From the IMG/VR virus record IMGVR_UViG_3300042887_001022, positions 1 to 20,635 of that record: a stretch of 20,635 nt of DNA. One strand, given 5' to 3'. Below, in pieces: positions 1 through 19,081 of the stretch. Each line of letters starts with the position of its first letter. Positions within the stretch are counted from its first letter, which is position 1. Origin of the DNA: a virus. Under the pieces are notes generated by a model. The model worked only from the letters and a program-made list of their open reading frames with translations. It did not search any database and had not been told where the DNA came from. Made by a program: the position numbers and the translations under genes.

Positions 1-2953
1 TCGCGCGCTTCAAACGACGATCACGAATACGCTCAGCCTTACGCGCAGTCCTACCAGCATCAAGCGCCTCAAGCCGATTATTCCTAGCCGCCTCAGCCTT
101 ATCAACCTTAGCCTGAAGCCGAGCAACCTGCTTCTCATCAGGATTCGGGAACGACTGATACGCCGCAAGCTTAGCCCTCGCATCAGCAAGGCGCTCCTCA
201 GCTCGAACAAGATTAGCCTCATTCACACGACGCAACCCGCCACGCTCAAGCGCCGCAGCCTCAACCCCACGAGCCTCAGTAGCCGCCGCAACAGCACGCT
301 CAGCAGCCTCATACTCCATCCGCGCCTGCGGACTCAACAACGCCTTCTGCTCATCCGTCAACGCCACACGCGCAAGATCATCAACCAAACCAATACTCGC
401 ACCACGAGAACCAATCGTACGAATCTTCGCAGCAGCCAACTCCTTACGAGCAGCAGCAAACACATCAGCCAACTCGCGATTATTATTCTGCAACGCCAAC
501 CGCTCAGCAAGAACCAAGTCTCGCATCATCTGATTCATAACCTCGCGAAACCGCTTACGACTCTTAGCAGGCCCATACTTACCCCAACCAGTCTCACGCG
601 CACGAGCCTGGATAACAATCCCAAGACGCTTCAATCGAGCCTGCACAGCAACAAGCTCAGCAATCGGCTCATTACGCTCGCGATACAACGCTTGAGCGCG
701 ACCCTCCAAACCATCATCACTAAGGCGACGATCCATCGCAACAAGACGAATGTAATTCGCGCGACGAGCCTCCTCAGGACTCATACCCAAAGCCTTCGCC
801 ATATGCGCCTCAATGATCTCAGCAATAGGCTTCACACCAGCACGAAGCCGAGCCATCACAACAGGATCAATCTCAACAGCATCCAGCTCGCGCATACGCG
901 CAATCTGATCAACCAGCCGACGCTCCTTTTGCTCGTCGTACTTAGTCGCAGGGCCACCCTCTTCTTCTTTTCTCCGAGCCATCATCGCGCGATGATCCTC
1001 AAGCTCAGCCTCAAAAAACCGTGCAACATACGCTGGCGTAACCGCAACACCATCAGCATCAACAGCCGGATAAATCAGATTGAACGCCGCACGATCCTTC
1101 ACAAGCTCACTCGAACCCTCACCAAGAAGACGAGTGATCGTCGCGCGCAACTCCAACCCCTCACCCTGCGCAACATTCACATCAAACCGCTGCTGACGCT
1201 GCGCCGCTTTCTTCTCCAACCGCTTCCGATACCACGCAACACGCCTAGCCGCAGGAGCCTTCGCAAACTCAGTAACAAGAGTCCCAGCAATACCACGACC
1301 AGCACGCCCAATCATAACCTCAGGCGTAACATCAACCATCTCACCAGTCTCTTCAAACCGGCGCTGCTGCTCCTCATAAACATCACGAGCAGCCTTATTC
1401 TCAGCAGCCGTCGCAGCACGCTGACGCGCAACACGCGCATTCTCCGCAAGCCGCTGACGCAAAGCAGACTGACCAACAACACCAGGACTAGGCGAATACT
1501 CTGGAAGCGGCACCTCTTCCGGCATACTCGGAGCAGCCTTAGCCTCCTCGCCACGCACAGTAATAGCTCGCCCACGAGCAGCAAACCGCTGCGCCCCCGA
1601 CCCAGCAAGACCAGCACGCGCGCCAACACCACCACCAACACTAACGCCCTTCGCCGCACTCATAAAGATCGTCAACGCATCAACGGGATTATCCCGAATA
1701 AACTCCCCAACAGCCGCCCAAAAACCACGCTCATCAGCAGCCCGATCCGCATACACATACGGCGAAATAGCCGCCTCAAAAACCCGACTACCTTCCTCCG
1801 TATCACCACGAAACGCAGCCGCAGCAGCCGCATCAACAATCGCCTTCACACCAGCAGGCGCAGCTCCAACCTCACCAATCTGCCGAACAACAGACCGGAA
1901 AAACAACTTCTTATTATTGTTCTGATTGACCGCTCGATACACCTTCTCACCAAGCGGCAACTCGTCCCAATCACCAACATCCCAACCATTCTCAACCGCA
2001 GTGCCACGAAGCGCCACCAACGCATCCGCCGAAAACGGATTACTCTCAACCAACGCAGCATCAAGCTGACTAGGCGTAGCACCCGTCTTCCCATACTCAA
2101 AGATATACTCAGTGCCCTCATTCGAATCAGGAATAACAATCGGAGCCTTACGAGTCACATCCACATAATCATTCGACCTCGTTGCAACATTCTGAATCTC
2201 CGCATTCACATCTTTAACACGCGGAGGCGTAGGCGAAACAACATCATAAGCCTGCCCAAGACCAGTAGGCATAATCACAGGCGGCCCCGGAAGACCAGCA
2301 GGCACCTCTCCAAACGCCTCAATCGCAACATCCGTCAACGGCTTAGTCTTCTTCAAACCAGCAGTAACAGGAGCGCCAGCACCACGCGCACCACCACCCG
2401 TCACCTGCCCAGGCTCAGCCTTCATCGCCTCCCGAGCTTGCCTAAGTTTTTCCCGAGAATCACTCGTATCAACACCACGACCAAGCCACTTCTCCGTCGC
2501 AAACCCAAGAGCCTCGCGACCCGGCTCAGTCGTCACAAGCAACGATGCGGGATTAAGAACCGTCGCCGCCCCAAACAAAGCAGACTTAATGCCCTTACCC
2601 GCCTCAGCATCAATCGCATCAAGCGCAGACGCAAACTCATTACTAGCGCCACCACCAACCTTCTTACGCTCAGCCGAACCAATACCAGGCTTCAACAAGC
2701 CAACGCTTTCTAGCGCGACACGCTCATCCGCCTCGTCCGCCAGCTCGCGACCAGTGCGCTCAAGATACAAGTCTCGACGCGCCTTCTGCTCATCCGAAAG
2801 AATGTCAGAGAACTGTCCCGTCGGATCAAAAACAAGATTAGACGAAAACGAAACAGAACTAGGCGAAGGCTTAGCCGAAGGCTTGACACGAGGCTTGACA
2901 GTTTTCTTGCCACCACTAACGCCACCAGCAATGATCTCTTTACGCTTAGCCAC
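1..2953 (-). CDS. Very large virion-associated protein, N-terminal 984 residues (partial at left edge)
   Basis: An uninterrupted reading frame of 984 codons runs from a GTG at 2953-2951 to the window edge with no stop, so the C terminus is missing. An in-frame TAG at 2965-2963 leaves this GTG (MAKRKEIIAGG) as the only reasonable start. It sits 6 nt after a TAGACT element. The first 35 residues are Lys/Ser/Pro-rich and basic. Around residues 405-450 there is a hydrophobic, Gly-rich stretch (FIRDNPVDALTIFMSAAKG, then GVSVGGGVGARAGLAG). From about residue 490 onward the protein is Arg/Ala/Glu-rich and probably helical, with long coiled-coil-like segments near the edge. Position after the nozzle, fibre and two Ala-rich proteins suggests a DNA-ejection or internal virion protein, but I do not recognise a family. 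A tape-measure role is possible but less likely because no tube proteins are seen. Codons are strongly T/G-ending. The frame is certain; the function is inferred. Confidence 0.85.
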   Translation of the reverse strand, partial: MAKRKEIIAGGVSGGKKTVKPRVKPSAKPSPSSVSFSSNLVFDPTGQFSDILSDEQKARRDLYLERTGRELADEADERVALESVGLLKPGIGSAERKKVGGGASNEFASALDAIDAEAGKGIKSALFGAATVLNPASLLVTTEPGREALGFATEKWLGRGVDTSDSREKLRQAREAMKAEPGQVTGGGARGAGAPVTAGLKKTKPLTDVAIEAFGEVPAGLPGPPVIMPTGLGQAYDVVSPTPPRVKDVNAEIQNVATRSNDYVDVTRKAPIVIPDSNEGTEYIFEYGKTGATPSQLDAALVESNPFSADALVALRGTAVENGWDVGDWDELPLGEKVYRAVNQNNNKKLFFRSVVRQIGEVGAAPAGVKAIVDAAAAAAFRGDTEEGSRVFEAAISPYVYADRAADERGFWAAVGEFIRDNPVDALTIFMSAAKGVSVGGGVGARAGLAGSGAQRFAARGRAITVRGEEAKAAPSMPEEVPLPEYSPSPGVVGQSALRQRLAENARVARQRAATAAENKAARDVYEEQQRRFEETGEMVDVTPEVMIGRAGRGIAGTLVTEFAKAPAARRVAWYRKRLEKKAAQRQQRFDVNVAQGEGLELRATITRLLGEGSSELVKDRAAFNLIYPAVDADGVAVTPAYVARFFEAELEDHRAMMARRKEEEGGPATKYDEQKERRLVDQIARMRELDAVEIDPVVMARLRAGVKPIAEIIEAHMAKALGMSPEEARRANYIRLVAMDRRLSDDGLEGRAQALYRERNEPIAELVAVQARLKRLGIVIQARARETGWGKYGPAKSRKRFREVMNQMMRDLVLAERLALQNNNRELADVFAAARKELAAAKIRTIGSRGASIGLVDDLARVALTDEQKALLSPQARMEYEAAERAVAAATEARGVEAAALERGGLRRVNEANLVRAEERLADARAKLAAYQSFPNPDEKQVARLQAKVDKAEAARNNRLEALDAGRTARKAERIRDRRLKRA

Positions 2954-2959
2954 GCTAAT

Positions 2960-2965
2960 AGTCTA
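2960..2965 (-). promoter_or_regulatory. TAGACT -10-like element, leaderless spacing
   Basis: TAGACT ends exactly 6 nt before the GTG at 2953, which would place the transcription start at the start codon. It lies partly in the 16-nt gap after the previous gene's stop (2970-2972). A G stands two bases upstream of the hexamer, as in the six similar sites in this window. No Shine-Dalgarno sequence is visible. Confidence 0.55.
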
Positions 2966-2969
2966 GCGG

Positions 2970-4322
2970 CTAAGTAACGCTACCGCCGACCCCACCCATA
3001 AACGCGCCAGACGTATTCACGTTAAGACCAGCAGGAGCAAGAACAAACTTACGCACCCACGCCTGCGCATTCCGACGACTCATACCCTGATTAACAAGCT
3101 GCGCAGAAATCTGCCTTATGATCTGCTGAGCCGTCGGCTGACCAAGCTGCTCCTCTCCCTTTTCCGCACTAATAGTGTCAACCCTATTCTCCGGCACCGA
3201 ACTCTTAGCCTGCTCAATTGCCTCCGCCTCAGACATGGCAACAAAAGTCTTCGGCAACTTCTTAAGACCGTCAATTGGATCAGTAAAGAAAACCGTATAC
3301 TCGAACTTGCCAGTCGGCACAGTCGCGCCAGTCCACTGATCAAGATCCGCCAAAATCTGAGCTTTCGTATTCCTAATAGCCTTAGCCTTATCCTTACCCG
3401 CCTTCGCGCCAGCATTAGCAGCACTCTGCGCAAGACGCTGCCAACCCTGAGAAATACGAGCAGTATCAACCTGACGATCCCAAGCCTGATTCTCAGCAGT
3501 CAACCCAAGACGCGCCTCATTCTGCGCAAGCGTACCCTGACTAATCGCACGCTGAATCTCATCATTTCGCAACTGATACAGATACTTCGCCGTATCCGCA
3601 CTAAGCTTACTCGACCGATCCATCAGCGCCTTCGTAAGATTCGCCGTCACCGCACCAACCATCTGCGCACCAGTCACCGCAGCAGCAGGCGCATACCCCA
3701 TAGTCGGAGCAGAAAGATTCGCAAGATTCGACGCCATTGTCGGAGATGCACCAGGCGCAATACTCGTCGGAGCGCCAGCAGCCGCAGCAGCCGACTGACC
3801 AGCCGACTGGGCCTGACCAGCAAGCTGCGAATACAAGTTTCCAAACCCAGCAAGACTAGCCTGCGTACGATCAGCAATCCCAGTAAGCGTACCCGTTAAC
3901 GCGCTAGTAAGCCCACCAAGGCCAGCCTGTTGCTGAGCAGCCGTAGCGCGGAGCGCGTCCTCACCCGCAACGCCCATCGCAGCAAGCTCAGCCGCATCCT
4001 TACGCAACTCGGCAGGAGTCTTAAACGGAGCCGTTAGAGGATTGCGCTTAGCCGCTTCGGCAGCGGCACGAGCAGCAGCGCGCTCCTCTCGGCGCTTTTT
4101 TGCAGCAGCCCTGCGCTCTGCCGCTCGCTCAGCAGCCGTCTTCCCAGTAGTAGCGGGTGCCGAAGGAGTACCACCTCCGCCACCACCACCATCATCTTGC
4201 TTGGACACAGTGCCATCACCAGCAGCGCCCTGCCAAAGCTTTGTACGCTTTCCCTTACCGCCAGTAGCAGTATCCGTATAAACAGCGTCAGGATTTTTAG
4301 CGTCATAAGTAAACTGCGGCAT
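2970..4322 (-). CDS. Ala-rich virion protein, possible internal/ejection protein
   Basis: 450 residues, ATG start 6 nt after TAGAAT, stop TAG. I do not recognise the family. Residues 1-60 hold an MPQFTYDAKNP start, then a Gly run of seven and low-complexity Ser/Pro/Thr. Residues about 60-95 are a highly charged Ala/Arg/Glu/Lys helix. Residues about 95-310 are Ala/Gln/Ser-rich and probably helical. The last 120 residues look like a folded domain (KFEYTVFFTDPIDGLKK ... TISAEKGEEQLG) followed by a helix and a Gly-rich end. The neighbouring 399-residue protein has a similar build: disordered N terminus, Ala-rich helical middle, and an LY-S/N motif (NLYSQL here, DLYSNI there). Location between tail genes and the giant protein suggests a virion or ejected protein. 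That role is inference only. Confidence 0.85.
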   Translation of the reverse strand: MPQFTYDAKNPDAVYTDTATGGKGKRTKLWQGAAGDGTVSKQDDGGGGGGGTPSAPATTGKTAAERAAERRAAAKKRREERAAARAAAEAAKRNPLTAPFKTPAELRKDAAELAAMGVAGEDALRATAAQQQAGLGGLTSALTGTLTGIADRTQASLAGFGNLYSQLAGQAQSAGQSAAAAAGAPTSIAPGASPTMASNLANLSAPTMGYAPAAAVTGAQMVGAVTANLTKALMDRSSKLSADTAKYLYQLRNDEIQRAISQGTLAQNEARLGLTAENQAWDRQVDTARISQGWQRLAQSAANAGAKAGKDKAKAIRNTKAQILADLDQWTGATVPTGKFEYTVFFTDPIDGLKKLPKTFVAMSEAEAIEQAKSSVPENRVDTISAEKGEEQLGQPTAQQIIRQISAQLVNQGMSRRNAQAWVRKFVLAPAGLNVNTSGAFMGGVGGSVT

Positions 4323-4328
4323 GACTAG

Positions 4329-4334
4329 ATTCTA
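4329..4334 (-). promoter_or_regulatory. TAGAAT -10-like element, leaderless spacing
   Basis: TAGAAT is the closest of the seven sites to a canonical -10. It ends 6 nt before the ATG at 4322. Its TAG is also the stop codon of the upstream gene (4332-4334), so stop and promoter are superimposed. GG precedes it. Confidence 0.6.
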
Positions 4335-5531
4335 CCTGCCCCTACCCTTAGGCGGCTTCGGCTTATTATTCTCAATCCAATCACTAATCCACTTAAGCTG
4401 CTGAGGAGTCAAAGCAAAACGCTTCAACGCATTCAACGAAGCAACTTTCTGAAAATACGGCGCATCACGCTGAGCAACAATCGCATTCGCCTGACCCATA
4501 AACTGACCCTGCGGCCCACCACTAAGCTGCTGACCAGCAACAAGACCAGTAGCAGTTACAGGATTCGTATTCGGAGCAGCCGCAGGAGGAATCGCCTCAG
4601 CAGCCGGAGCAACCGGAGCAACCGGAACCTCAGTCGTTGTCGGAGCAGCGAGCGCAGCAGCCTGCGGAGCAAGCGTCTTAAAGATATTCGAATACAAATC
4701 AGCGTACTGCTTATCAATACCCGTCAACTCGCCAGCAGCCCTCTTCGTCAAACCAGACAACGCTGACTGCAACGCACCAGTCTCAGCCGCACTAGCCTGA
4801 CCACGCATACCACTACGACGCGCACCCGCCCGAGCAGCTACATCACCAATACCAAACTGATTACGCTCACTCGTAGCCTCAGCAGCACCAAGCGCGCCCT
4901 CAAGATAACCCTCTTGCCCCTTAGCGATGCGATTAATTTCCATCTCAAGATCCGCAGGTGCGTACACCTTGCCCGCCGAATCCTTATAGACCGGCTTGCC
5001 AGCATCATCAAACGTCTGAAGAATGCCAGTTGCGAGATACACCGGCTTACCCGTTTCGTCAAGCACTGGCTTCTTCGTTACCGGATCAATCTTTGGCGCT
5101 CGATAGTACGCCTGACCCTTAGTCGGAGAGCCTTCAGTCGTGTCACGATTGATCGTGTAACCATAATTAGTGCTTGTCTGATTCTGAGCTGCGCGAAGCA
5201 CCGGATCAGTCAGGAGAAACGACGGATCGCTTGTGTACTGTCCCTGCCACCAAGCAGCATTAGGAGGCGTACCCGGCGTAGTAACAGTCGTCGTAGTCGG
5301 CGCAGCGGGAGGCGCAACAGCCTTAGGAGCGGCAGGCGGCTTTAGCGTAGTTGTACCATCAGCATTAAACGAAACAGCAAACGGAGTCCTACTTCCGCCC
5401 GGTCGCCTAGGAGTAGTCGGCGGCTTAAACCCAGCAGCAATCGCCTTAGGCGAACCAGGACGCACGCCCTCCATGCCCTTAGGCGTACCAGTCTTTCCCG
5501 GCTTAGGAATCTTGACGCGCGTTACCGCCAC
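4332..5531 (-). CDS. Ala/Pro-rich virion protein, function unknown
   Basis: 399 residues with a GTG start that shares one base with the stop of the upstream gene (TAGTG), so it is probably translated by reinitiation. Residues 1-95 are Pro/Gly/Thr/Ala-rich and basic, probably disordered. Residues about 95-190 hold a possible folded segment (TSDPSFLLTDPVLRAAQNQT) with two PV-containing turns that look repeated: VTKKPVLDETGKPVYLATG and DAGKPVYKDSAGKVYAPAD. Residues about 190-290 are helical and Ala-rich (RAGARRSGMRGQASAAETG). A second Ala/Pro linker then leads to a basic C terminus (NNKPKPPKGRGR). I do not recognise the family. Neighbours and composition suggest an internal virion protein paired with the 450-residue protein downstream. 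Confidence 0.82.
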   Translation of the reverse strand: MAVTRVKIPKPGKTGTPKGMEGVRPGSPKAIAAGFKPPTTPRRPGGSRTPFAVSFNADGTTTLKPPAAPKAVAPPAAPTTTTVTTPGTPPNAAWWQGQYTSDPSFLLTDPVLRAAQNQTSTNYGYTINRDTTEGSPTKGQAYYRAPKIDPVTKKPVLDETGKPVYLATGILQTFDDAGKPVYKDSAGKVYAPADLEMEINRIAKGQEGYLEGALGAAEATSERNQFGIGDVAARAGARRSGMRGQASAAETGALQSALSGLTKRAAGELTGIDKQYADLYSNIFKTLAPQAAALAAPTTTEVPVAPVAPAAEAIPPAAAPNTNPVTATGLVAGQQLSGGPQGQFMGQANAIVAQRDAPYFQKVASLNALKRFALTPQQLKWISDWIENNKPKPPKGRGR

Positions 5532-5788
5532 TAGCGTCCGCCCATCATCCTAGCCCGAGTCTCAACCCCGCCCAGAATGTTCCCCTTCATGCCACTCGCA
5601 ACATCCGAAGGATTCGTCACAGCTCCCATCACAGCAGCAGGCGACTGATCCATAATCCCCTGCGTCTTCTTATCGCCAAGCTTCTTTAGCGAGTTGAGGA
5701 GAATTTTGCGCGGATCAATTTCAGCGTTGGCGTTGGGTGCGGTCGGTTTGTAGTTGACGCGCTGGGGTGCGTAGAGGGTGGAAGGCAC
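5531..5788 (-). CDS. Small hypothetical structural-region protein with internal codon-usage switch
   Basis: 85 residues, GTG start (MPSTLYAPQRVNYKPT) 6 nt after TATACT. No family is recognised. The N terminus is Pro/Asn-rich, the middle is basic and helical (KILLNSLKKLGDKKT), and the C terminus is Gly/Met/Arg-rich (MMGGR). Codon use changes abruptly near codon 32. The first third uses C- and A-ending codons (ACC, CTC, TAC, AAC, CCC), while the rest uses the T/G-ending codons of the genes downstream. This places a possible recombination edge inside the gene. Its stop overlaps the next start as TAGTG. Confidence 0.75.
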   Translation of the reverse strand: MPSTLYAPQRVNYKPTAPNANAEIDPRKILLNSLKKLGDKKTQGIMDQSPAAVMGAVTNPSDVASGMKGNILGGVETRARMMGGR

Positions 5789-5794
5789 GCTAGA

Positions 5795-5800
5795 AGTATA
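5795..5800 (-). promoter_or_regulatory. TATACT -10-like element, leaderless spacing
   Basis: TATACT ends 6 nt before the GTG at 5788 and is preceded by GG. It lies in the 13-nt gap between two genes, with no room for a leader or Shine-Dalgarno sequence. Confidence 0.6.
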
Positions 5801-5801
5801 C

Positions 5802-6125
5802 CTATGGCTCAGTCGGCTTAGGGAATGATTCTTTTACAGCACGAATCTTCTCAGCCATTTCTGGAGGGAAAACACCAGCATGGTAGAGAGCATCCAACTG
5901 ATCACCAATAGGAGGGTAAGCATTCTTGCGATGCTCGCGGTACATAAAACTCAACTTTTCTGCTTCCATACGCGCCATCTCTGCTTCGACATCTTCGCGA
6001 GAAGGTTTTTCTATATCTTCGCTATCCCAAATAACTTGGTCATAGTCGTTAGCGTAAACCGTGAACGATGCAGAAGGCACAAGCGAATGGATCGCTTCCC
6101 CAACTTTTACGGGTCGGTCAATCAC
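5802..6125 (-). CDS. Tail fibre chaperone-like protein with YPPIGDQLDALYH motif
   Basis: 107 residues; the GTG start overlaps the fibre stop by 4 nt (GTGA). The N-terminal part is a short beta-like segment (SASFTVYANDYDQVIWDSED). A charged helix follows at about 42-66. Residues 70-82 read YPPIGDQLDALYH, followed by FPPEMAEKIRAVKESFPKP. The sequence YPxIGDQLDALYH with a closing AVKxxFPKP is widespread in small phage proteins encoded next to tail fibres and usually treated as fibre assembly helpers. The position directly behind a fibre gene fits that role. Codon use (many GAA, mixed third positions) differs from the GAG-rich genes on both sides and matches the fibre's C-terminal half, so fibre tip and chaperone may have been acquired together. 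Family resemblance is from memory of the motif; the exact role is inferred. Confidence 0.75.
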   Translation of the reverse strand: MIDRPVKVGEAIHSLVPSASFTVYANDYDQVIWDSEDIEKPSREDVEAEMARMEAEKLSFMYREHRKNAYPPIGDQLDALYHAGVFPPEMAEKIRAVKESFPKPTEP

Positions 6126-7024
6126 GGCCTAATCTCCATCAACAAAACCCAAGAGTAATACTGGCTATCGTCTTGGAAATCCAATTGGTAAGCCTGATAG
6201 TTGCCACCATAGAAATAGTAAGTTGTCGCGGCAGTTGTTCCCGGTACATCAGTTCCCATAATTGAGAACTTCCCGCTCATTGGCCCTGGGTAGAGCATCG
6301 CATAGTTCTCAGTATCGCTCATACCAAGGTTGACTGTTCCGTTTCGGTAGCACCTAATACCGGCAGACGAACCAGCGCTGGTAAACGTGCGGCATTGGAT
6401 AGACGCTTGGATAAAGATGACGCTGTTGCTGAACTTTGGTGTGATTGTTCCGGCGAGGCCAATGTACGCGCCGCCCGTGCGGCTGGTGTTGAACGTCGAG
6501 ACCTCGGTCTTAGTGCCGTTGTAGGTGACCTGCACGACAGACCCGGACGGCATAGCCGTTGAAGGGATACTCGCAACGGTCGGGTTTGGATAAGTACCCG
6601 AAAGGCCACCACCAGCAGCGAGTCCACTAATACTCGCAACACTAGGGTTCGGATAAGTACCCGAAAGCATCCCACCAGCAGCGCCCGTCGGAGGACTAGA
6701 CGCATTCACCCAAGCAGACCCATCCCAAAAATACGACAACTGCGTATCCGTCTCATAAATCATCTGACCCACCACAGGATCAGCAGGCCGACGAGTAGAC
6801 AAACACGACACCGCACCCGTCGCCAACTGCTTCGCCAACGCAGGCACATTCGCATTCATCACAGCCTGAGCCAACGGCCCAGTATCGCCCAAACCAAACC
6901 GCACCTGCTCAACCTGCTGATGCGTCAACGCCGTCTGGCGATCCAACGGAATAATCCGAGGATCAGGCGGCTCCGGCATCGGCTTCACACCCGGCATCGC
7001 CGGAGAATCAAATTTCTCAGCCAC
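6122..7024 (-). CDS. Tail fibre / receptor-binding protein with LSGTYPNP repeats
   Basis: 300 residues with a GTG start in a TAGTG overlap with the nozzle gene. Residues 1-75 form an N-terminal helical/Pro-rich region that may anchor it to the tail. Residues 80-107 carry the common fibre module ADPVVGQMIYETDTQLSYFWDGSAWV. Two repeats of LSGTYPNPxVASI follow at residues 120-127 and 141-148. LSGTYPNP repeats are typical of phage fibres and other extracellular rod proteins. Residues about 150-300 form a beta-rich C-terminal domain (YIGLAGTITPKFSNSVIF ... WVLLMEIRP) that resembles the TNF/C1q-like tips of other fibres. Codon use changes sharply at the second repeat: T/G-ending before it, then CAA, GGA, ACA, AGC and C-ending after it. 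This is a likely host-range determinant with a swapped tip. Confidence 0.85.
   Translation of the reverse strand: MAEKFDSPAMPGVKPMPEPPDPRIIPLDRQTALTHQQVEQVRFGLGDTGPLAQAVMNANVPALAKQLATGAVSCLSTRRPADPVVGQMIYETDTQLSYFWDGSAWVNASSPPTGAAGGMLSGTYPNPSVASISGLAAGGGLSGTYPNPTVASIPSTAMPSGSVVQVTYNGTKTEVSTFNTSRTGGAYIGLAGTITPKFSNSVIFIQASIQCRTFTSAGSSAGIRCYRNGTVNLGMSDTENYAMLYPGPMSGKFSIMGTDVPGTTAATTYYFYGGNYQAYQLDFQDDSQYYSWVLLMEIRP
6567..6604 (-). repeat. Second copy (in reading direction) of LSGTYPNP DNA repeat
   Basis: This 38-nt segment matches 6630-6667 at 34 of 38 positions by eye and is offset by 63 nt (21 codons). It encodes LSGTYPNPTVASI. The change of codon usage in the fibre gene begins at this copy. 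Confidence 0.8.
6630..6667 (-). repeat. First copy (in reading direction) of LSGTYPNP DNA repeat
   Basis: This is the partner of the repeat at 6567-6604 and encodes LSGTYPNPSVASI. Near-identical direct repeats inside a fibre gene are natural sites for homologous exchange of the downstream tip. Confidence 0.8.
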
Positions 7025-9036
7025 TACACCACTCGACCAGGACGAAGCTGATTAAACCCATTCGTGATCTCATACAACGAGAAACCAATCGGATAACCCG
7101 TCGTTTCAATCGTATACGTCACAGCCTGACTAAGCGTCTGATGATCACAACGAAGCACACTAGAAGTCTGCGTCTGCGCCGTCGCAATTTCCGAACCAAT
7201 GCTCGTAGTAGAGCCAGAAGCGTCAAGCCCCTTAGTGGCCGTCACCGTAAACGCGCCCGCACTCGACCCGGGATACAACAATGCCGACGGATACGTTGTC
7301 GCAGATGGGTACGTCGCGGCTCCACCATAAAGCGTATACGTCAACAAGCCGTGACGATACCGCCGCTTCTGCGCCGGATCACCCTCAGCATACGCGCGCG
7401 TAGTGATTGAACAATTGATCTGCGAACCATCCGCATCCGTCGAAGTGTTATCCGGAACAACAACTCGATCAATACGAATCACACGATCCAAACCACTTGT
7501 AGCCGCCGTCGTCCCATACTTCACAGCGTAAATACGATTAGTCGTCTGATCAGAATCAACACACGCAGCAGCAATCTCAAGCTGCCCAGCCTGCACACGA
7601 GTCCAACCAAACGAAGCGCGAAGATCACACAAGAAACCACCAGTCGCAAGACTGATGTAATAGTGCGAATCATTAATGTTGGCCGAGCCGTACACGCCAA
7701 GGTTCACATTATTGCCGGCAAACACATCAGTGCCATCAAACAAAGACTGATTGAACTTAAATAGCGACTGTCCCGCAAGCGCATCGCCCCACAAGTTCGC
7801 AACCTTCTTCGTCATCGTATTCACAAGCGAAGCGCCATCCGTCAAATACACACCATCCGACGCAGCAAACATCACACCAGCACTCGTACGCTGCACACTC
7901 TTAGCGCTCAAGCACCCAACCTGTTGAGAAAAACCACGAATGTTCGCCGTAATACCGCCTCGACTCAGCGAAGCACTAGCCGCACCACCAGACTGCGTAA
8001 GGAGATAACCACTCAGCATCACACAACCCTTAGTGCCAAGCACCATCATGTTGCCCGAACCAACCGGAACAAGCGCAATGATCTGCTCAATATCCTCAAT
8101 ATCAATATAGTTCAACGCGGGAAACCCAGCACGAGTAGCCTGGACAAGACCATCAACTTGAGTCACCGTCGCATCCGCAGCTTCGCGAATGCTCCACACA
8201 AGCCGATTCGGATACGCAGCCGTCGTGTTCGTTGTCGTGTTCGTGATCTTTACGTCAGCAAGGATAATGCGCGAATCACCACCAGAAGTAAACGTGCCAA
8301 TACAACCAGCCGACGAAACGTACTGACCATCATTACGAGTACCGACCTGTGGAAGAACCGGATAGTACGCGGCGCTCGTATACGTCTTCGCGTAGAGCGG
8401 GGGCGGATCAACCGTGATTGTCGTAGAACCCGTGTTGACAATGCGTCCCGTGTATTCGTCTGTACCACCATTTGACAAGTGAACATATCCGCCGACACTC
8501 ATCGTGCCAACCGCCGTCGCGCCAAGCGTGATCACATTATTGCCCACGGCTGTAGTCGCACTAACCACCGTCGTAGCATTCGCGCTTGTTAGCGAGAAAT
8601 CAGCTCCACCAACAAACGCCATCGGACTTGTACCCGACGTAGACGCAACTGGGAACACAGAAGAATCACCATAAATCGTCGGCGCACTAATCGCATTAGC
8701 CGTGATGCTTGACGTAAACGGATAGAGCGTCTGCGCCGTAGAAGCAAACGCCATAGACCCGAACTTAACAACTCCGCCCTCAACGCCAGCAGGATAGAGC
8801 CGAGTGCGCCCATCAATATTCGCACTACGCTGCGAAGCCATCTCCGTCGGAGCAAGACTCGTAGCCGCAGCAAGCGCAGTCGTAGACGCGCCACGCTTCG
8901 CAAGCGAACCAGAATTCGTAATCACAATGTTCGTAGCGTCATACACCGCACCATCAGGAATCAAGTGCCGTGGAACGTCACGAACCATTCCCGTAAAAAA
9001 GTTGGAATGGCTTGCGTACTGAACAGTACCTGCCAT
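7024..9036 (-). CDS. Tail nozzle / stabilisation protein (P22 gp10-like beta-propeller)
   Basis: 670 residues, ATG start 3 nt after the adaptor stop. The N terminus holds the signature of short-tail nozzle proteins: IPDGAVYDATNIVITNSG followed by SLAKRG at about residues 26-49, comparable to the pattern of a Pro/Gly turn, an Asn-Val segment and an R-G motif in P22 gp10-like proteins. The rest is beta-rich with many Thr, Ser, Gly and Val and few charged residues, as expected for a beta-propeller with inserted domains (for example TTAVGNNVITLGATAVGTMS, about 160-230). Aromatic motifs such as ALLYPGSSAGAFTV lie near the C terminus. In P22- and SU10-type phages this hexamer closes the tail tube below the adaptor ring, and here it directly follows the adaptor gene. 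Confidence in a tail/nozzle role is good. The precise family needs a profile search. Confidence 0.8.
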   Translation of the reverse strand: MAGTVQYASHSNFFTGMVRDVPRHLIPDGAVYDATNIVITNSGSLAKRGASTTALAAATSLAPTEMASQRSANIDGRTRLYPAGVEGGVVKFGSMAFASTAQTLYPFTSSITANAISAPTIYGDSSVFPVASTSGTSPMAFVGGADFSLTSANATTVVSATTAVGNNVITLGATAVGTMSVGGYVHLSNGGTDEYTGRIVNTGSTTITVDPPPLYAKTYTSAAYYPVLPQVGTRNDGQYVSSAGCIGTFTSGGDSRIILADVKITNTTTNTTAAYPNRLVWSIREAADATVTQVDGLVQATRAGFPALNYIDIEDIEQIIALVPVGSGNMMVLGTKGCVMLSGYLLTQSGGAASASLSRGGITANIRGFSQQVGCLSAKSVQRTSAGVMFAASDGVYLTDGASLVNTMTKKVANLWGDALAGQSLFKFNQSLFDGTDVFAGNNVNLGVYGSANINDSHYYISLATGGFLCDLRASFGWTRVQAGQLEIAAACVDSDQTTNRIYAVKYGTTAATSGLDRVIRIDRVVVPDNTSTDADGSQINCSITTRAYAEGDPAQKRRYRHGLLTYTLYGGAATYPSATTYPSALLYPGSSAGAFTVTATKGLDASGSTTSIGSEIATAQTQTSSVLRCDHQTLSQAVTYTIETTGYPIGFSLYEITNGFNQLRPGRVV

Positions 9037-9039
9037 ACG

Positions 9040-9741
9040 CTAACCCTGCCGCTGCGTAAACGAGTAGTACGTCGAAGGATCGTGAAACGGACGACGAGGA
9101 TTACGCAAGTAACCATACGGAATCGTCTTCGCCGAACGACCCTGGCGACGAGTAAGCCACTTCTGGAAACGATCCATACCAGCCACAAACTTAGCGTCTA
9201 GCGCATTACTAAGGTTCTGATCCTCGCCCACAGCATCAGCAAGTCGAGCAGCTGCACCAATCGTGATCAGCCAATGCCACTGCGACGGAATATCCTCCGG
9301 GACATCACCGTCATTAACAAGATCCGTTGAAGTCTGAACATAGTAAATCTTCAACGTATCGCCAGTCTGCTGCGGAACAGGCCACAAGCGAATCGTGTCC
9401 AACCCGAGAAACGCATACTTACGAGTAGCACCAATCGGGTTTGTCGCGTTCAGCGCAAGCAGTTCGTCCGCGCTTGACTGTTCAAGGATATACGAGTACG
9501 TTGAACCTAGGCCAAGGTACTCAAGATACTGAAGCGCACCAAAGTCAGAAATGCTCCAATCGGACGAAATATCGTACACCGACTGACCAGTCGTCAGAAC
9601 CTTGCTGACCTGCGTGACCTTAAGCTGGGCGCTAACAACGATGTCATCAATCGCATCATTGACATGCAGTCCAGCTTCGGTTTCATTATCGTTTAGCGCA
9701 AGGTTCTGAGCGCGCGTCTTAAGCTGAGCAAACGTAGCCAT
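9040..9741 (-). CDS. Head-tail adaptor (SU10-type adaptor / P22 gp4-like)
   Basis: 233 residues; ATG in a TAATG overlap with the zinc-ribbon gene. The N-terminal helical part (MATFAQLKTRAQNLALNDNE ... HVNDAIDDIVVSAQLKVTQ) followed by a beta strand LTTGQSVYDIS at about 50-59 is the standard layout of dodecameric adaptor proteins that bind under the portal. A beta region with an aromatic turn follows (LRLWPVPQQTGDTLKIYYVQ-type, about 115-135). A helix with PSQWHWLITIGAAARLADA and a basic, aromatic C-terminal tail complete it. The order adaptor then nozzle is that of SU10- and P22-like phages. The protein would sit between portal and nozzle. Confidence 0.78.
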   Translation of the reverse strand: MATFAQLKTRAQNLALNDNETEAGLHVNDAIDDIVVSAQLKVTQVSKVLTTGQSVYDISSDWSISDFGALQYLEYLGLGSTYSYILEQSSADELLALNATNPIGATRKYAFLGLDTIRLWPVPQQTGDTLKIYYVQTSTDLVNDGDVPEDIPSQWHWLITIGAAARLADAVGEDQNLSNALDAKFVAGMDRFQKWLTRRQGRSAKTIPYGYLRNPRRPFHDPSTYYSFTQRQG

Positions 9742-10124
9742 TACTCGTCCATGCCCTTCGGTCGGAGCGGATCAAGACCACGATGCATCGTGTCATGCAT
9801 CTCCTCACGCACCTCACTCGCACACGTAGGACACAAGCCGCGCGACACCATGCTGATCACTTCCTCCTCAGTACGCATCGGATACCACTCCTTCGCGTAC
9901 GGCTTCCAAGCCTGGAGGTTCGTAATGTCAGGACGAGCGGGAAACGTCGCAAGACACACGCCGCACGCCTCACCCTTCGAGAGTCGCTCAGCATCCTCAG
10001 CCTGATGCTCGCCCTTCAGATACCACATGATGCTGCGCTGAGGCTCGCCCCACGAGTAATCGTACGTTTCCTCAGCGTGCGCTTCAATCGGCCTACGCCA
10101 AGACTGCTTCTCAGTAATGATCAT
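9741..10124 (-). CDS. Small CxxC-CxxC (zinc-ribbon-like) protein, function unknown
   Basis: 127 residues; its ATG overlaps the glycosyltransferase stop as ATGA. Four cysteines form two pairs, C54-C57 (CGVC) and C98-C101 (CPTC), spaced 40 residues apart, which is a plausible zinc-binding knuckle pair. The N terminus is aromatic (TYDYSWGEPQRSIMWYL). The C terminus is acidic and His/Met-containing (EVREEMHDTMHRGLDPLRPK). It lies between a glycosyltransferase and the head-tail adaptor, with overlaps on both sides, so it belongs to the same transcription unit. I do not recognise it. A head-tail completion or assembly role is possible from position only. Confidence 0.75.
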   Translation of the reverse strand: MIITEKQSWRRPIEAHAEETYDYSWGEPQRSIMWYLKGEHQAEDAERLSKGEACGVCLATFPARPDITNLQAWKPYAKEWYPMRTEEEVISMVSRGLCPTCASEVREEMHDTMHRGLDPLRPKGMDE

Positions 10125-11686
10125 GCTAGTGCAGTAGTATACCTGCTCCGCAACGACTCATTACCAACCATGCGATCCTGTTTCACATGAAACATACTGC
10201 GACGAATCATACGCTTCCGTTCAGTCTCGTCACCGAGCAACTCAGCGACCGCGCCACGAAACCCCTTAGCGTCCTTGATTCTGATAATCGAGTCGTCTGG
10301 CACTCGCTTATACGCCTCAGCATCACTAGCGACGAGCGCAGCACCACTCATCGTGAACTCAAGCCACTTGAGATCACTCTTGCACCGAGTAACATCATTG
10401 TCTACAACTGGCGCTAAACCAATCGTCCACTTAGACAACACGCGCCGATACGCCGCCACACTAGGCGTAAACCCAATATGCGTATACGCAAAATCCCACC
10501 CAGGGTCAAGCCCAACGATCTGAACCTCAGCACCATTCATGCTCGCGTACCGCATCGCATCTTCCACGAGATGCATGTCGCCAAGATGATTCGCGCTGAA
10601 CACGCAGCCAACAATCTTCTTGCGTGATGATGGTTTGATCCAATCAGCCGGATCAACCGTGTTCTCACACAACACCACATTCGGATTCACCTTAGAGTAA
10701 ACATCAACCAGAGCTGGCGTGGCGCAAATAATGTAGTCGGCTTCTTCAACCATTCGCTTATGCGACGCTTGGCGACTCGCCCACACATCACCATTCTTCT
10801 TGTGATACGCGCCAACAACATTGCCTAGCTCGCTCGATAAGTAATTGTCGTCCACATCAATCACGCGCTTCTTCCCAAGCTCAGCGCCCGTATCCCAAAA
10901 CTCCTGCACATCACTATTCGGATACTGATACACCCACGCTCGCGCCTCATGCGAATCACGCGAATCAAGACTCATCCGCACAACACTCCGAGTCGTACGC
11001 GAAGGCAACTCGCACCGCACATACCCAGTACCCTCAATACGCCACTCATAAAACACCGCAGGCACTGGCTCTCGAACCTCGTACGGCGCAAGATCACTCC
11101 AAGTCATACGCATACGCGCAGCCTCACGCACCGTCGAGCGATGCAACCCATCATGGCGCTGCCGATACCCGTATCGCGCAAGCGGAGCAGGAGCCAACCG
11201 GCACCCCGCCTTCGCCAAGCGATACACAAGATCCCAATCCTCAATCACCGAATCAGTCCAACCACCAACACGCCGCAACCAATCCGTCTTAATCATGATG
11301 ATCCCACAAATGTTCTGATCCTGAACACGAAGCGGCGACCACGGCTCAGCATTAAACCTAAACCGATCAGCTCCAAAGCCAAGCATCCACGGATACGAAC
11401 CATCGTAATCAATCGCGGCTTCCCACAAGCGCCACAACGTCTTAGAGTCAACAACATCATCAGACCCCATGAGAAACACGTACTTCGTCTTCACCATGCT
11501 CAGCGCGCCATTCAACGCCGTAGCCATCTCATGCTTCCCAGCATTCTTCGCAATCATCACCTGGACACCACGAGGCAACGAGCGAAGAGTCTCTCTAAGA
11601 AGATCCTCATTCTCACCATGCCACGGAATCAAAACCGTCACATGACGACGCACAGCCGCCTCATACGCGGCAATGTTGTGATGCAT
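10121..11686 (-). CDS. Two-domain glycosyltransferase (GT2-like plus GT4-like)
   Basis: 521 residues, ATG start 2 nt after the upstream stop. Residues about 15-195 read as a GT-A fold family 2 transferase: VTVLIPWHGENEDLLRETL, the metal/nucleotide motif GSDD at 74-77, and IEDWDL at 148-153 containing the ED pair expected for the catalytic base. Residues about 255-500 look like a GT-B family 4-type transferase: VIDVDDNYLSSE (275-286), ATPALVDVYSKVNP, GLAPVVDN (423-430) and KSDLKWLEFTMSGAALVAS (436-454), which corresponds to the C-terminal nucleotide-sugar-binding region. Both motif sets look intact, so the protein may add two sugars in sequence. No signal peptide or membrane segment is visible, so it should act in the cytoplasm. 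Placement inside the head genes suggests glycosylation of a capsid or tail protein, as known for some actinobacteriophages. The substrate is inferred. Confidence 0.85.
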   Translation of the reverse strand: MHHNIAAYEAAVRRHVTVLIPWHGENEDLLRETLRSLPRGVQVMIAKNAGKHEMATALNGALSMVKTKYVFLMGSDDVVDSKTLWRLWEAAIDYDGSYPWMLGFGADRFRFNAEPWSPLRVQDQNICGIIMIKTDWLRRVGGWTDSVIEDWDLVYRLAKAGCRLAPAPLARYGYRQRHDGLHRSTVREAARMRMTWSDLAPYEVREPVPAVFYEWRIEGTGYVRCELPSRTTRSVVRMSLDSRDSHEARAWVYQYPNSDVQEFWDTGAELGKKRVIDVDDNYLSSELGNVVGAYHKKNGDVWASRQASHKRMVEEADYIICATPALVDVYSKVNPNVVLCENTVDPADWIKPSSRKKIVGCVFSANHLGDMHLVEDAMRYASMNGAEVQIVGLDPGWDFAYTHIGFTPSVAAYRRVLSKWTIGLAPVVDNDVTRCKSDLKWLEFTMSGAALVASDAEAYKRVPDDSIIRIKDAKGFRGAVAELLGDETERKRMIRRSMFHVKQDRMVGNESLRSRYTTALA

Positions 11687-11688
11687 AA

Positions 11689-12333
11689 CTAAGCGGGAAT
11701 CTCGCGCTGAAGCGAAGCATTCTCAGCAGCCTCAGCCGCCAGCTCCACCTTCAACGCCTCAATCGCCTTCGGAATGTCGTACCGAGGACGCTCACGCTGA
11801 AGCTCGTACGCGATCACATAATCAGGATCGTACCCGCCCTCGCGAATCATGTTGCAAATCAGCGCACTCGTCGGCTGACCCTTCTTGCCCTGCATCTGCT
11901 CGTACGTCGGCCACGGCGGATCAAGCTTCTTACCCGTCACCTGAATGTAGTGATTACCATTGCTGGCATCCTCCACAAGGCGCTTCTCCGTATACGCTCG
12001 ATCCTCCTCATTCGGGATCGTGTCCGTATCAAACACGCTGAACATCAGGTCGGGATTCCAACCATCATGCGCCTGACCATTCACCACACCAACGACCGTC
12101 GTAGGCGTAGCGCCATACGCAATAGCCGTGCCATCCTCGCGCCGACCAAAGCCAAGCCAATGCTGCTTAGCCATCTCAGCCTCCTCAGGACGCACAAGAC
12201 CATGCTGGAAATCACACTGAATTGCCGCCACAACAGTCTGCGGAGCCATCGTCCCGTTCGTGGTCAGAACCATCTGAACCTGATCGGGGCGAGCAATGAA
12301 CGTGTAATTAGCGTGGCGACTGACAAAACGCAT
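11689..12333 (-). CDS. Hypothetical head-region protein following the capsid gene
   Basis: 214 residues, ATG preceded by AGGAG with 7-nt spacing. The N terminus (MRFVSRHANYTFIARPDQVQ) is a beta-like start. It continues with QTVVAAIQCDFQHGLVRPEEAEMAKQHW, a form I associate with small conserved phage proteins encoded after the capsid gene. The middle carries short acidic turns (FDTDTIPNEEDRAYTEKR). The C terminus ends in an Ala/Glu-rich helix (IEALKVELAAEAAENASLQRE), a possible coiled coil. It could be a head-tail completion, decoration or head-assembly protein; nothing in the sequence decides between these. A strong hairpin lies between the capsid gene and this one. Confidence 0.78.
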   Translation of the reverse strand: MRFVSRHANYTFIARPDQVQMVLTTNGTMAPQTVVAAIQCDFQHGLVRPEEAEMAKQHWLGFGRREDGTAIAYGATPTTVVGVVNGQAHDGWNPDLMFSVFDTDTIPNEEDRAYTEKRLVEDASNGNHYIQVTGKKLDPPWPTYEQMQGKKGQPTSALICNMIREGGYDPDYVIAYELQRERPRYDIPKAIEALKVELAAEAAENASLQREIPA

Positions 12334-12411: not shown

Positions 12412-13569
12412 TTAGTAGCCGGTGATGCCCGAGATGATAGCGTGCTTCTTCTCGCTACCAAGCTCGAACGACCACTCGGTGAGGTACTCCTGCTTCACGG
12501 AGTCCTCGTCGTTGGCCTGACGATCCGGCTTCAGCACCGTGTCGCGCAGAGGACGCATCGTCACGTCCTCCATGTCCACGACCACGCCGATGCCGCCGTA
12601 CTGGTTAGCGGTGGACTGGAAGTCGTACCAGTCGCGCTTCACCATGATCTGCACCTTCGCACCCGACGCGCTCTGGTACTCCTTCAGCGACACGCCGTAC
12701 GTGTCAATGCTCGGAGCCGGAGGAGCGAGCTTGCCCTGCGGGAACGAGGACAGAGCCGACGCGACGAGCGGCGAGCAGAACATGACCTTGTTCTGCGAGC
12801 CATAGCGAAACGCCTTGCGGAGGAACGTCTCAAAAACGCTCTCCGTCAGCGTGCCAACGCCGGTCGTGAGGTTCGAGGTGACGTACTGGTAGATACCACC
12901 GACGTAACCAATCGGGGCGCTACCGCTCGTGTTCAGGTCGCGAACGCCCCAGAACAGCGAGTTTTCAAGCTGACGCTTATGCTCAATCAGCTTCTTCTTC
13001 GCCTCGTTAGCAGGCTCCGGGCCGCCATACAGCTTCGACGCGACCAGCGTGTTCGTAAAGCCGAACGGATCACGCTGGATCTGCGCGTAGTTGTAGTTAG
13101 CAACCTTCTTCGTCTGCACGAGGGTACCGAGGGTCGCGCCCTCAGCAGCCGCGTTGCCGATCTTCACGAGGTCAATGCCGCTCGCAGCCGAGAGAGCAGT
13201 GACTCCGCCAAGAGCGCGCGTGACGGTGATGGCGTTAGCAGCCGTAGCCGAAACGACAGCGTTCTCGCCCGTGGAGGCAAAGCGCACAACGTCGTTCGGA
13301 CGGAAGTAACCACCCGTGCCGGTAGCGACCGAGATGTTCGTGTCGCCAGAAGCCGCCGACGCAGCAAGCGTTGTGAGGCGCGGCATCAGCTCGTCGCTCA
13401 GCCACTCGACCTTCTGCGAGTAAGCAGCGCGCTTGCCGATCTTCTGAAGCATCGTCGTCAGCGGAGCCTCGTCCGGCTCAAGCTGCGCGATGGTGGGGGA
13501 CATATCAACGACGCGCTGGTTCGACAGAATGTCCGCGTCGTCAACGACCCCAGTGAGGATAGTAGGCAT
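12412..13569 (-). CDS. Major capsid protein (DUF5309 / SU10 major head protein type, HK97 fold)
   Basis: 385 residues. The N terminus (MPTILTGVVDDADILSNQRVVDMSPTIAQLEPDEAPLTTML) has the usual opening of this capsid family: an early helix, then SP/T-I and a D-E-A-P-L-T segment. Residues about 72-136 form an inserted small beta domain (DTNISVATGTGGYFRPNDVV ... NAITVTRALGG), as in DUF5309/SU10-type capsid proteins. The following GNAAAEGATLG and YNYAQIQRDPFGFTNT are typical of the E-loop and spine region. The C terminus (VVVDMEDVTMRPLRD ... YLTEWSFELGSEKKHAIISG) matches the closing P-domain strands. It follows the scaffold and precedes a strong hairpin. Codons favour C at the third position (ATC, GTC, AAC, TAC, CGC), unlike most of the window, which fits high expression. 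Ribosome site: AGGAG 12 nt before ATG. Confidence 0.9.
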   Translation of the reverse strand: MPTILTGVVDDADILSNQRVVDMSPTIAQLEPDEAPLTTMLQKIGKRAAYSQKVEWLSDELMPRLTTLAASAASGDTNISVATGTGGYFRPNDVVRFASTGENAVVSATAANAITVTRALGGVTALSAASGIDLVKIGNAAAEGATLGTLVQTKKVANYNYAQIQRDPFGFTNTLVASKLYGGPEPANEAKKKLIEHKRQLENSLFWGVRDLNTSGSAPIGYVGGIYQYVTSNLTTGVGTLTESVFETFLRKAFRYGSQNKVMFCSPLVASALSSFPQGKLAPPAPSIDTYGVSLKEYQSASGAKVQIMVKRDWYDFQSTANQYGGIGVVVDMEDVTMRPLRDTVLKPDRQANDEDSVKQEYLTEWSFELGSEKKHAIISGITGY

Positions 13570-17789: not shown

Positions 17790-18143
17790 CTACTTCGGAG
17801 GCTCCGGCCACTCAATCGGCTGCGTCGGATCAGTAATCGTCGCGGGAAGATCACGCAGCGCCTGCCGATACGAACGCCACGCCTTCGCATTCGTAGGAGC
17901 ATCAGCTCCCTGCGTCCAATCTGAAGCAGCCAGGCGAGCATTACGCTCCACGCGAAGATCACTGAACGCCAACTCTGCGTGAGCCGTATCCCACGCGGAC
18001 TGAATGTCACTCCAGGTCGGAGGATCTCCAGGCCCGTGCCACATCAAAGCAGCTTTGTATTCAGCCTCATTGGTAGGATCGCCACGATAACCAAAATTAG
18101 CCTCTGAAGCAAGATAGCGAATAACGATAGCGAGACTCGTCAT
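17790..18143 (-). CDS. Phage tail assembly chaperone-like protein (PF16778 type)
   Basis: 117 residues from the ATG at 18143, which overlaps the fibre stop as ATGA. An in-frame ATG at 18161 also exists but would give a longer overlap and a six-residue non-conserved extension. The C-terminal half contains the recognisable motif: VERNARLAASDWTQGADAP followed by AWRSYRQALRDLPATITDP and PIEWPEPP. This R-N-x-L-L-x-x-x-D-W-T-Q ... YRQALRDLP pattern is the phage tail assembly chaperone domain found behind fibre genes. The N-terminal half (AIVIRYLASEANFGYRGDPT) is a separate small region. It probably helps fold or trimerise the fibre encoded directly upstream. Confidence 0.82.
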   Translation of the reverse strand: MTSLAIVIRYLASEANFGYRGDPTNEAEYKAALMWHGPGDPPTWSDIQSAWDTAHAELAFSDLRVERNARLAASDWTQGADAPTNAKAWRSYRQALRDLPATITDPTQPIEWPEPPK

Positions 18144-18670
18144 ACCAGAATCTCCATACATACAATATTAGACTGCTGGTTTACAAATTGAGCGACCATA
18201 TTCGCAGCATTAGCCGTCGTATTTACTTTCCCTTGAATCTTGTAGGTAACAGCAGACGATGTGGCAGGGGAATCAAGGTAGACAATACTCCAAACACCGC
18301 GAACAGCCGTGAGTCCAGAAATAGTTCCTCCCGTTGAACCAATGTGTTCTCCAGTCGTACTACCAATAACCGTAGAACCTCGCAATAACGCTAGACCAGA
18401 GTTATTGGCGTCTGTTTCACGAAAAGACTGCATCGGAACCCAAGCCCACACTAGAACTTTGCTCGTAGCACTCGTCGGAGTAATTGACACACTCAGACCA
18501 GTATCCGTCAGAGTAGTGCTTGCAATTGTTGTAGCCGTACTGTCTGTACCCATCACGACATTGGTTCCAGCCGTATAGATTGCGTTCAGATTGTCGCGTA
18601 CATTGGTGTTCCAGAATGCGGCGGTGAGTCCGCTATTAGTAACGGCTGTTCCAGGGGTAGTCCAAGCCAT
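18140..18670 (-). CDS. Short fibre protein with beta C-terminal domain
   Basis: 176 residues, ATG in a TAATG overlap with the 37-residue gene. The N terminus (MAWTTPGTAVTNSGLTAAFW, then NTNVRDNLNAIY) is a well-known fibre opening of the W-T/P ... L-TAA-x-W-N-x-x-V-R-DN-x type. Residues about 62-176 are a beta domain: SITPTSATSKVLVWAWVPM, LLRGSTVIG, YLDSPATSSAVTYKIQGKV and a closing SNIVCMEILV, matching the small fibre-tip fold used by many marine and freshwater phages. Codons are mixed (GGA, ACA, AGC, ACC), like the other fibre tips. The tail assembly chaperone gene follows immediately, so the two form a fibre/chaperone pair. Confidence 0.83.
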   Translation of the reverse strand: MAWTTPGTAVTNSGLTAAFWNTNVRDNLNAIYTAGTNVVMGTDSTATTIASTTLTDTGLSVSITPTSATSKVLVWAWVPMQSFRETDANNSGLALLRGSTVIGSTTGEHIGSTGGTISGLTAVRGVWSIVYLDSPATSSAVTYKIQGKVNTTANAANMVAQFVNQQSNIVCMEILV

Positions 18671-19058: not shown

Positions 19059-19064
19059 AGTATA
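19059..19064 (-). promoter_or_regulatory. TATACT extended -10 element, leaderless spacing
   Basis: TATACT preceded by TGG (TGGTATACT) ends 6 nt before the ATG at 19052, in the 29-nt gap between the two spike base genes. It is one of the best examples of the recurring element. Confidence 0.65.
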
Positions 19065-19081
19065 CCAAGCCTACGGACACA

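Follow-up and report, generated by a model that had tools for sequence, protein, structure and literature searches.

We have studied the tail-fiber gene of an uncultured phage, contained in a 20.6-kb virus record (the window, i.e., the whole stretch of 20,635 nucleotides that was analyzed), and find that a break in codon usage within this gene marks a genuine exchange of the fiber tip. Very probably the fiber is modular, the tip having been exchanged as a cassette with the small companion gene behind it and joined to the resident part by recombination in a linker bearing the motif GTYPNP. The constant anchor (residues 1-107) would attach the fiber to the virion, and all that lies behind it, together with the following small gene, would be the exchangeable cassette. 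Homologous recombination in the linker would have united a first repeat copy of native composition with an incoming second copy, head and companion gene, and the codon break would have arisen because the donor used other codons. In the present cassette a TNF/C1q-like head likely binds a surface sugar, the companion of 107 amino acids probably aids folding or trimerization of the head, and exchange of the cassette may change the host range.

The portal and major capsid protein (MCP) of the window are of SU10 type, and all its main genes lie on the minus strand. Phages of this family have genomes of ~40 kb with SU10-type capsid and portal genes and a modular tail fiber. The fiber had no match in a tblastn search of a collection of isolated phages. 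Comparison of the MCP with bacterial genomes gave a single match of 29% identity, to a Phycisphaerales MAG, and on this lone match we therefore claim no host. Inside the structural block, 10121-11686 encodes a protein in which two domains are of glycosyltransferase type (GT2-like and Glyco_trans_1_2-like), kept in the relatives examined. The features of the fiber locus are collected in Table 1.

Table 1. Features of the fiber locus, with positions in the window
Feature	Position	Strand	Basis or remark
Tail-fiber gene (anchor, linker, head)	7024..6122	minus	ORF, GTG start, 300 aa; synteny between 7024-9036 and 5531-5788 conserved in relatives
N-terminal anchor, residues 1-107, native G/T-ending codons	6704..7024	minus	68-99% amino acid identity, 12 relatives
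Joint motif, residues 74-107, GAVSC..ADPVVGQMIYETDT..YFWDGSAWV region	6704..6805	minus	final stretch in common; all relatives diverge after it
Linker repeat copy 1 (GMLSGTYPNPSVASI), native-type codons	6630..6683	minus	97-100% identical to L133, codons 115-132
Linker repeat copy 2 (GGLSGTYPNPTVASI), goes with head module	6567..6620	minus	72-78% identical to L147, codons 133-156
Maximum-likelihood codon-usage changepoint, codon 134	6625	minus	support codons 123-146 = 6658-6589
C-terminal head, residues 155-300, predicted TNF/C1q-like jelly roll, presumed receptor-binding tip	6125..6562	minus	AlphaFold2 model
Companion gene, 107 aa, PHROG 9114, remote XkdW kin, probable fiber chaperone or cap	5802..6125	minus	swapped together with tip
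Whole block replaced relative to near-identical phage L003	5810..6703	minus	DNA comparison
Constant 3′ border ATAGGTATACT	5794..5804	minus	6-7 nt ahead of GTG of gene 5531-5788; homology of relatives resumes here

Codon usage along the fiber gene

The first-pass annotation had claimed a sharp break in codon usage within the fiber gene, and this was clearly borne out. In codons 2-133 the third position is G or T in 96% of cases (120 G/T versus 5 A/C), compared with 49% in codons 134-300 (78 versus 82; Fisher p = 3e-20). In windows of 20 codons, third-position G+T stays at 0.95-1.0 through codons 1-115, and most of codons 160-280 give 0.2-0.55. A scan for a single changepoint gave LLR = 44.3 at codon 134, where the highest value among 2000 shuffles was 18.5. 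The changepoint falls between the two copies of LSGTYPNP, and the positions within 3 log-units of it span both copies. The change is steep, with no single-codon step, G+T being 0.67-0.83 over codons 127-150. The linker repeats are two copies of 54 nt, 63 nt apart and 85% identical, each encoding LSGTYPNP. The earlier description of near-identical 38-nt repeats at the break holds in that the repeats are real and the changepoint lies between them; it is slightly generous, since the 38-nt core has 4 mismatches between the copies.

The bias toward G- and T-ending codons is common to much of the genome, reaching 91% at most, in gene 2-2953, and the block of low G/T runs beyond the fiber gene to ~5689. 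Over 2-12333 the third-position G/T bias is extreme; apart from the swapped block, most genes have A3 = 0.01-0.06. This strand-asymmetric bias may result from mutation bias on the coding strand.

A break that is equally strong is found in gene 5531-5788, where it is kept in relatives and lies outside the swap. Codons 1-30 of this gene (5689-5788) have a G/T fraction of 0.10-0.55, versus 0.78-0.96 in the rest (13 sequences); they are mainly C/A-ending in most of the 13, the remainder of the gene being G/T-ending. The low G/T of these codons is not caused by the tip swap. Deviations in codon composition are also seen in the portal and capsid genes, and tip-like composition is present in the portal gene. 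Because gene 5531-5788 has a conserved break without a swap, a codon break alone is weak evidence for exchange, and codon breaks in this genome do not prove it.

Replacement of the tip and the gene behind it

Direct evidence of exchange comes from L003, a contig of 39.7 kb. Window positions 13022 to 6703 share 96.8% DNA identity with it, and identity resumes, at 94.9%, from 5810 to 4311. Between 6703 and 5810 there is no L003 match, and the 893 bp of the window correspond to ~1390 bp of unrelated DNA in L003. The tip was earlier proposed to have been replaced by recombination through the repeat. This is largely right: the replacement itself is evident from L003, and the mosaic linker described below supports recombination, but the borders are shifted and an additional gene is involved. 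Compared with the nearest relatives, the swapped part does not start at the repeats; it starts ~25 codons upstream, just after FWDGSAW at codon ~108. It also extends beyond the fiber tip, to include the whole of gene 5802-6125.

The gene order 7024-9036, fiber, 5531-5788, 4332-5531 is kept in about a dozen relatives. They retain the anchor wholly or partly, and then diverge after codons 105-115. The end of homology is preceded by a widely shared motif, GQMIYETDT..FWDGSAW, and the joint motif of residues 74-107, where the DNA homology of the relatives stops, is common to ~65 otherwise unrelated loci. Beyond it the tips of the relatives comprise a collar domain, a collar with GTYPNP and C1q, a carbohydrate-module-like tip (L010, a weak Pfam match), or are very short; that of L003 matches Pfam C1q (3.7e-8). 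When the two halves of the fiber were aligned separately their nearest relatives differed. The N half has ~12 close relatives, while the C half is intact only in L002/L082, which is the same phage at 99.96% identity, with other matches at 28-42%. Thus the two halves do not share nearest relatives, and windowed codon composition breaks between them. The related contigs have a conserved stem and a variable tip, and two features of a modular fiber are observed, i.e., an N-terminal anchor conserved across relatives, and C-terminal replacement between otherwise near-identical phages.

The third-position composition is homogeneous across 9 anchors (p = 0.15) and heterogeneous among the tips (p = 4e-9), as expected if the tips came from different donors. 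It is highly improbable that nothing was imported, and that selection acting within a single gene, on its expression or mRNA structure, set the codons of the tip. Native segments do deviate in a manner that such an explanation could accommodate, namely the MCP (C3 = 0.40), the 5′ half of the portal gene and the conserved codons 1-30 of gene 5531-5788. Yet the tip codons fit the MCP model poorly (mean log-likelihood −1.49, versus −1.23 for the portal), and the tips of the relatives differ mutually in composition. Codon selection as the sole cause is ruled out because the DNA itself has been replaced relative to the 97% identical phage L003.

The neighboring gene 7024-9036 is also mosaic; to one side of 8807 L013 shares 97% identity with the window, and to the other it has diverged. 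At the opposite border, the sequence GGTATACT occurs exactly three times in the window (5794-5804, 10136-10143 and 19059-19066), each time on the minus strand, which is the coding strand. It sits 6-11 nt ahead of a start codon and is kept before the same genes in relatives; possibly it is a −10 element that yields leaderless transcripts.

The mosaic linker and the position of the join

By bootscan analysis the join lies in the linker. L133, a fragment with a different anchor and a different head, matches codons 115-132 at 97-100% DNA identity and falls to 25-33% in the flank. L147 matches codons 133-156 at 72-78%, compared with 25-39% before codon 133. Beyond its own segment each is thus at or close to background. 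The switch from L133-like to L147-like sequence thus lies between copy 1 and copy 2, the same place as the codon changepoint. L132 shares the linker (81% identity over 125 nt) with unrelated flanks, and in L133 as in L132 the same linker lies between N and C modules that are unrelated. L147 contains a unit of donor type, with a single GTYPNP, a head 43.5% identical to that of the window, and directly behind it a companion that is 56% identical. The exact donor was not found; close to the join L147 reaches only 72-78% DNA identity. In the records L132, L134, L147 and L148 the MCP is 60-63% identical to that of the window, and the pool of tips therefore circulates within the wider phage family.

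The simplest reading of these alignments is that recombination occurred within the linker, before or after an exchange at the upstream joint. We regard it as possible, though rather doubtful, that the exchange took place at the upstream joint (FWDGSAW, codon ~108), with the linker arriving together with the head, so that the break within the linker would reflect the mosaic history of the donor itself. DNA homology with L003 and the other close relatives does stop at codons 96-109 and not at the repeats, and a two-copy linker already exists elsewhere (L132, L133). Against this, codons 109-133 are of the native G/T type for this phage family, and the passage from L133-like to L147-like sequence occurs at copy 2 within this fiber gene. 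The two events may also have occurred in succession.

Alternatively, the two repeat copies could serve to vary the fiber in place, through slippage or changes in copy number, or as part of a diversity-generating element. We consider this very unlikely. There are indeed two copies 63 nt apart, and copy number varies, with one copy in L147 and L134 and two in L132, L133 and one L148 fiber. But two copies of 85% identity are all that is present here, neither a reverse transcriptase nor a template-repeat arrangement is apparent in the list of ORFs of the window, and the relatives vary by replacement of whole modules and not by copy number.

We also asked if GTYPNP is a general breakpoint. In a survey of 125 ORFs the strength of the break at the motif was slightly raised (mean percentile 0.547, KS p = 0.016). 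In a test of N-only and C-only similarity the motif was not clearly different from the offsets, where the controls were poor, some offsets containing the motif itself. A privileged role for GTYPNP as a breakpoint across phages was not established by these two wider surveys, and the string was not found in the literature searched.

The head, its companion gene and known systems

The head was modeled by AlphaFold2 as a jelly roll, with pLDDT = 81.5 and pTM = 0.80. Its closest structural matches are PLTL (9ib7; Z = 14.4), the C-domain of Pgp3 (Z = 13.8) and BC2L-C (Z = 13.6), while TNF and C1q domains give Z = 9-11 (caprin-2 C1q, 10.3). The predicted fold is a TNF/C1q-type jelly roll nearest to the TNF-like lectins, and with these as the best matches a trimeric, sugar-binding tip is therefore likely. 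The head had no Pfam match, C1q and TNF included, and a search of PDB sequences found nothing for the fiber or the companion. PLTL (PMC12914763) and the N-domain of BC2L-C resemble the head in predicted fold, but share 7-8% sequence identity with it; here the head stands on a phage fiber.

The companion gene overlaps the fiber gene by 4 nt, and lies within the swapped block except for its last few bases. Its product belongs to PHROG 9114, annotated as of unknown function. In 51 of the 87 distinct relatives that had room upstream, an ORF of the head family ends directly before the companion, compared with 21 of 1189 control ORFs, and in L147 there are two fibers, each with its own companion copy behind it. 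Conversely, a companion follows just 3 of 58 heads of this family. A tight two-way pairing is rejected on this count; the pairing is therefore one-directional, and not every head of this fold needs the companion. Being directly behind the fiber and transferred with the tip, the companion has the position of a tail-fiber chaperone. Our best guess, by analogy with V22 gp27 (PMC7289586) or T4 gp38, is that it is probably a fiber chaperone or cap.

The companion of the window did not match Pfam XkdW, though 2 of 25 family members did so (best E = 4.4e-6). Among the chains examined XkdW (2hg7) was the sole one to give Z of at least 2 to the companion, at Z = 3.8. Foldseek found no significant match to the companion in the PDB, and there was no Pfam or NCBIfam match to the curated chaperone families Tfa and Phage_tail_APC. 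XkdW of PBSX and the XkdW-like gp25 of phage Sam46 (PMC8190038) are likewise encoded by small genes beside tail genes, and have a weakly similar N-terminal fold; the companion differs in having a C-terminal part, YPxIGDQLDALYHAGVFP. A role in tail assembly has been proposed for the XkdW-like protein of Sam46 (PMC8190038). We suggest, tentatively, that PHROG 9114 might be an unrecognized and widespread XkdW-related class of chaperone behind TNF-like heads, found also in cyanophages and Pelagibacter phages, and that with GTYPNP linkers it could make up a mobile linker-head-chaperone cassette, inserted by phages behind their own anchors.

The C1q-tipped fibers of L003 (7430-7720), L004 (7506-7793) and L006 (7517-7795) have a different small gene behind them, of the EAAALAHVMADPQEW type, and thus the type of companion changes with the type of tip. 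This small gene had no PHROG match in L003, the one tested.

Exchange of a fiber tip with its cognate small gene is already known (PMC10684548, PMC10579305), and this locus is an unusually clear example, if a fairly ordinary case of phages altering their binding target. In the domain mosaicism of receptor-binding proteins (Smug et al., 2023; PMC10684548) there is similarly a conserved N-terminal attachment part, an exchanged C-terminal receptor part and recent exchange. In the present case, by contrast, the borders are resolved to the base, the swap distinguishes a pair of near-identical phages, and the head is marked as foreign by the break in codon usage. Borders at base resolution have rarely been so clear in uncultured phages; to the pair and the codon mark of foreign origin the locus adds a mosaic linker, and the co-transferred small gene becomes a testable candidate chaperone. 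In the Alteromonas phages A5 and V22 a tail fiber and its cognate chaperone are common to different phage families (PMC10579305, PMC7289586), and there too the fiber tip travels with the gene directly behind it. V22 gp27 is a protein of 21.8 kDa whose homologs have DUF4376, whereas here the putative chaperone is a 107-amino-acid PHROG 9114/XkdW-like protein. The antireceptors of Streptococcus thermophilus phages (PMC5601072) also have host-recognition domains separated by repeats and a variable host-range region, but the repeats are collagen-like, in place of the GTYPNP repeat found here.

A second gene in the window, 18140-18670, has a head of the same TNF-like family (E = 1.7e-23). Behind it, overlapping by 22 nt, is a gene of the Phage_tail_APC chaperone family (17790-18161; E = 2.2e-19).
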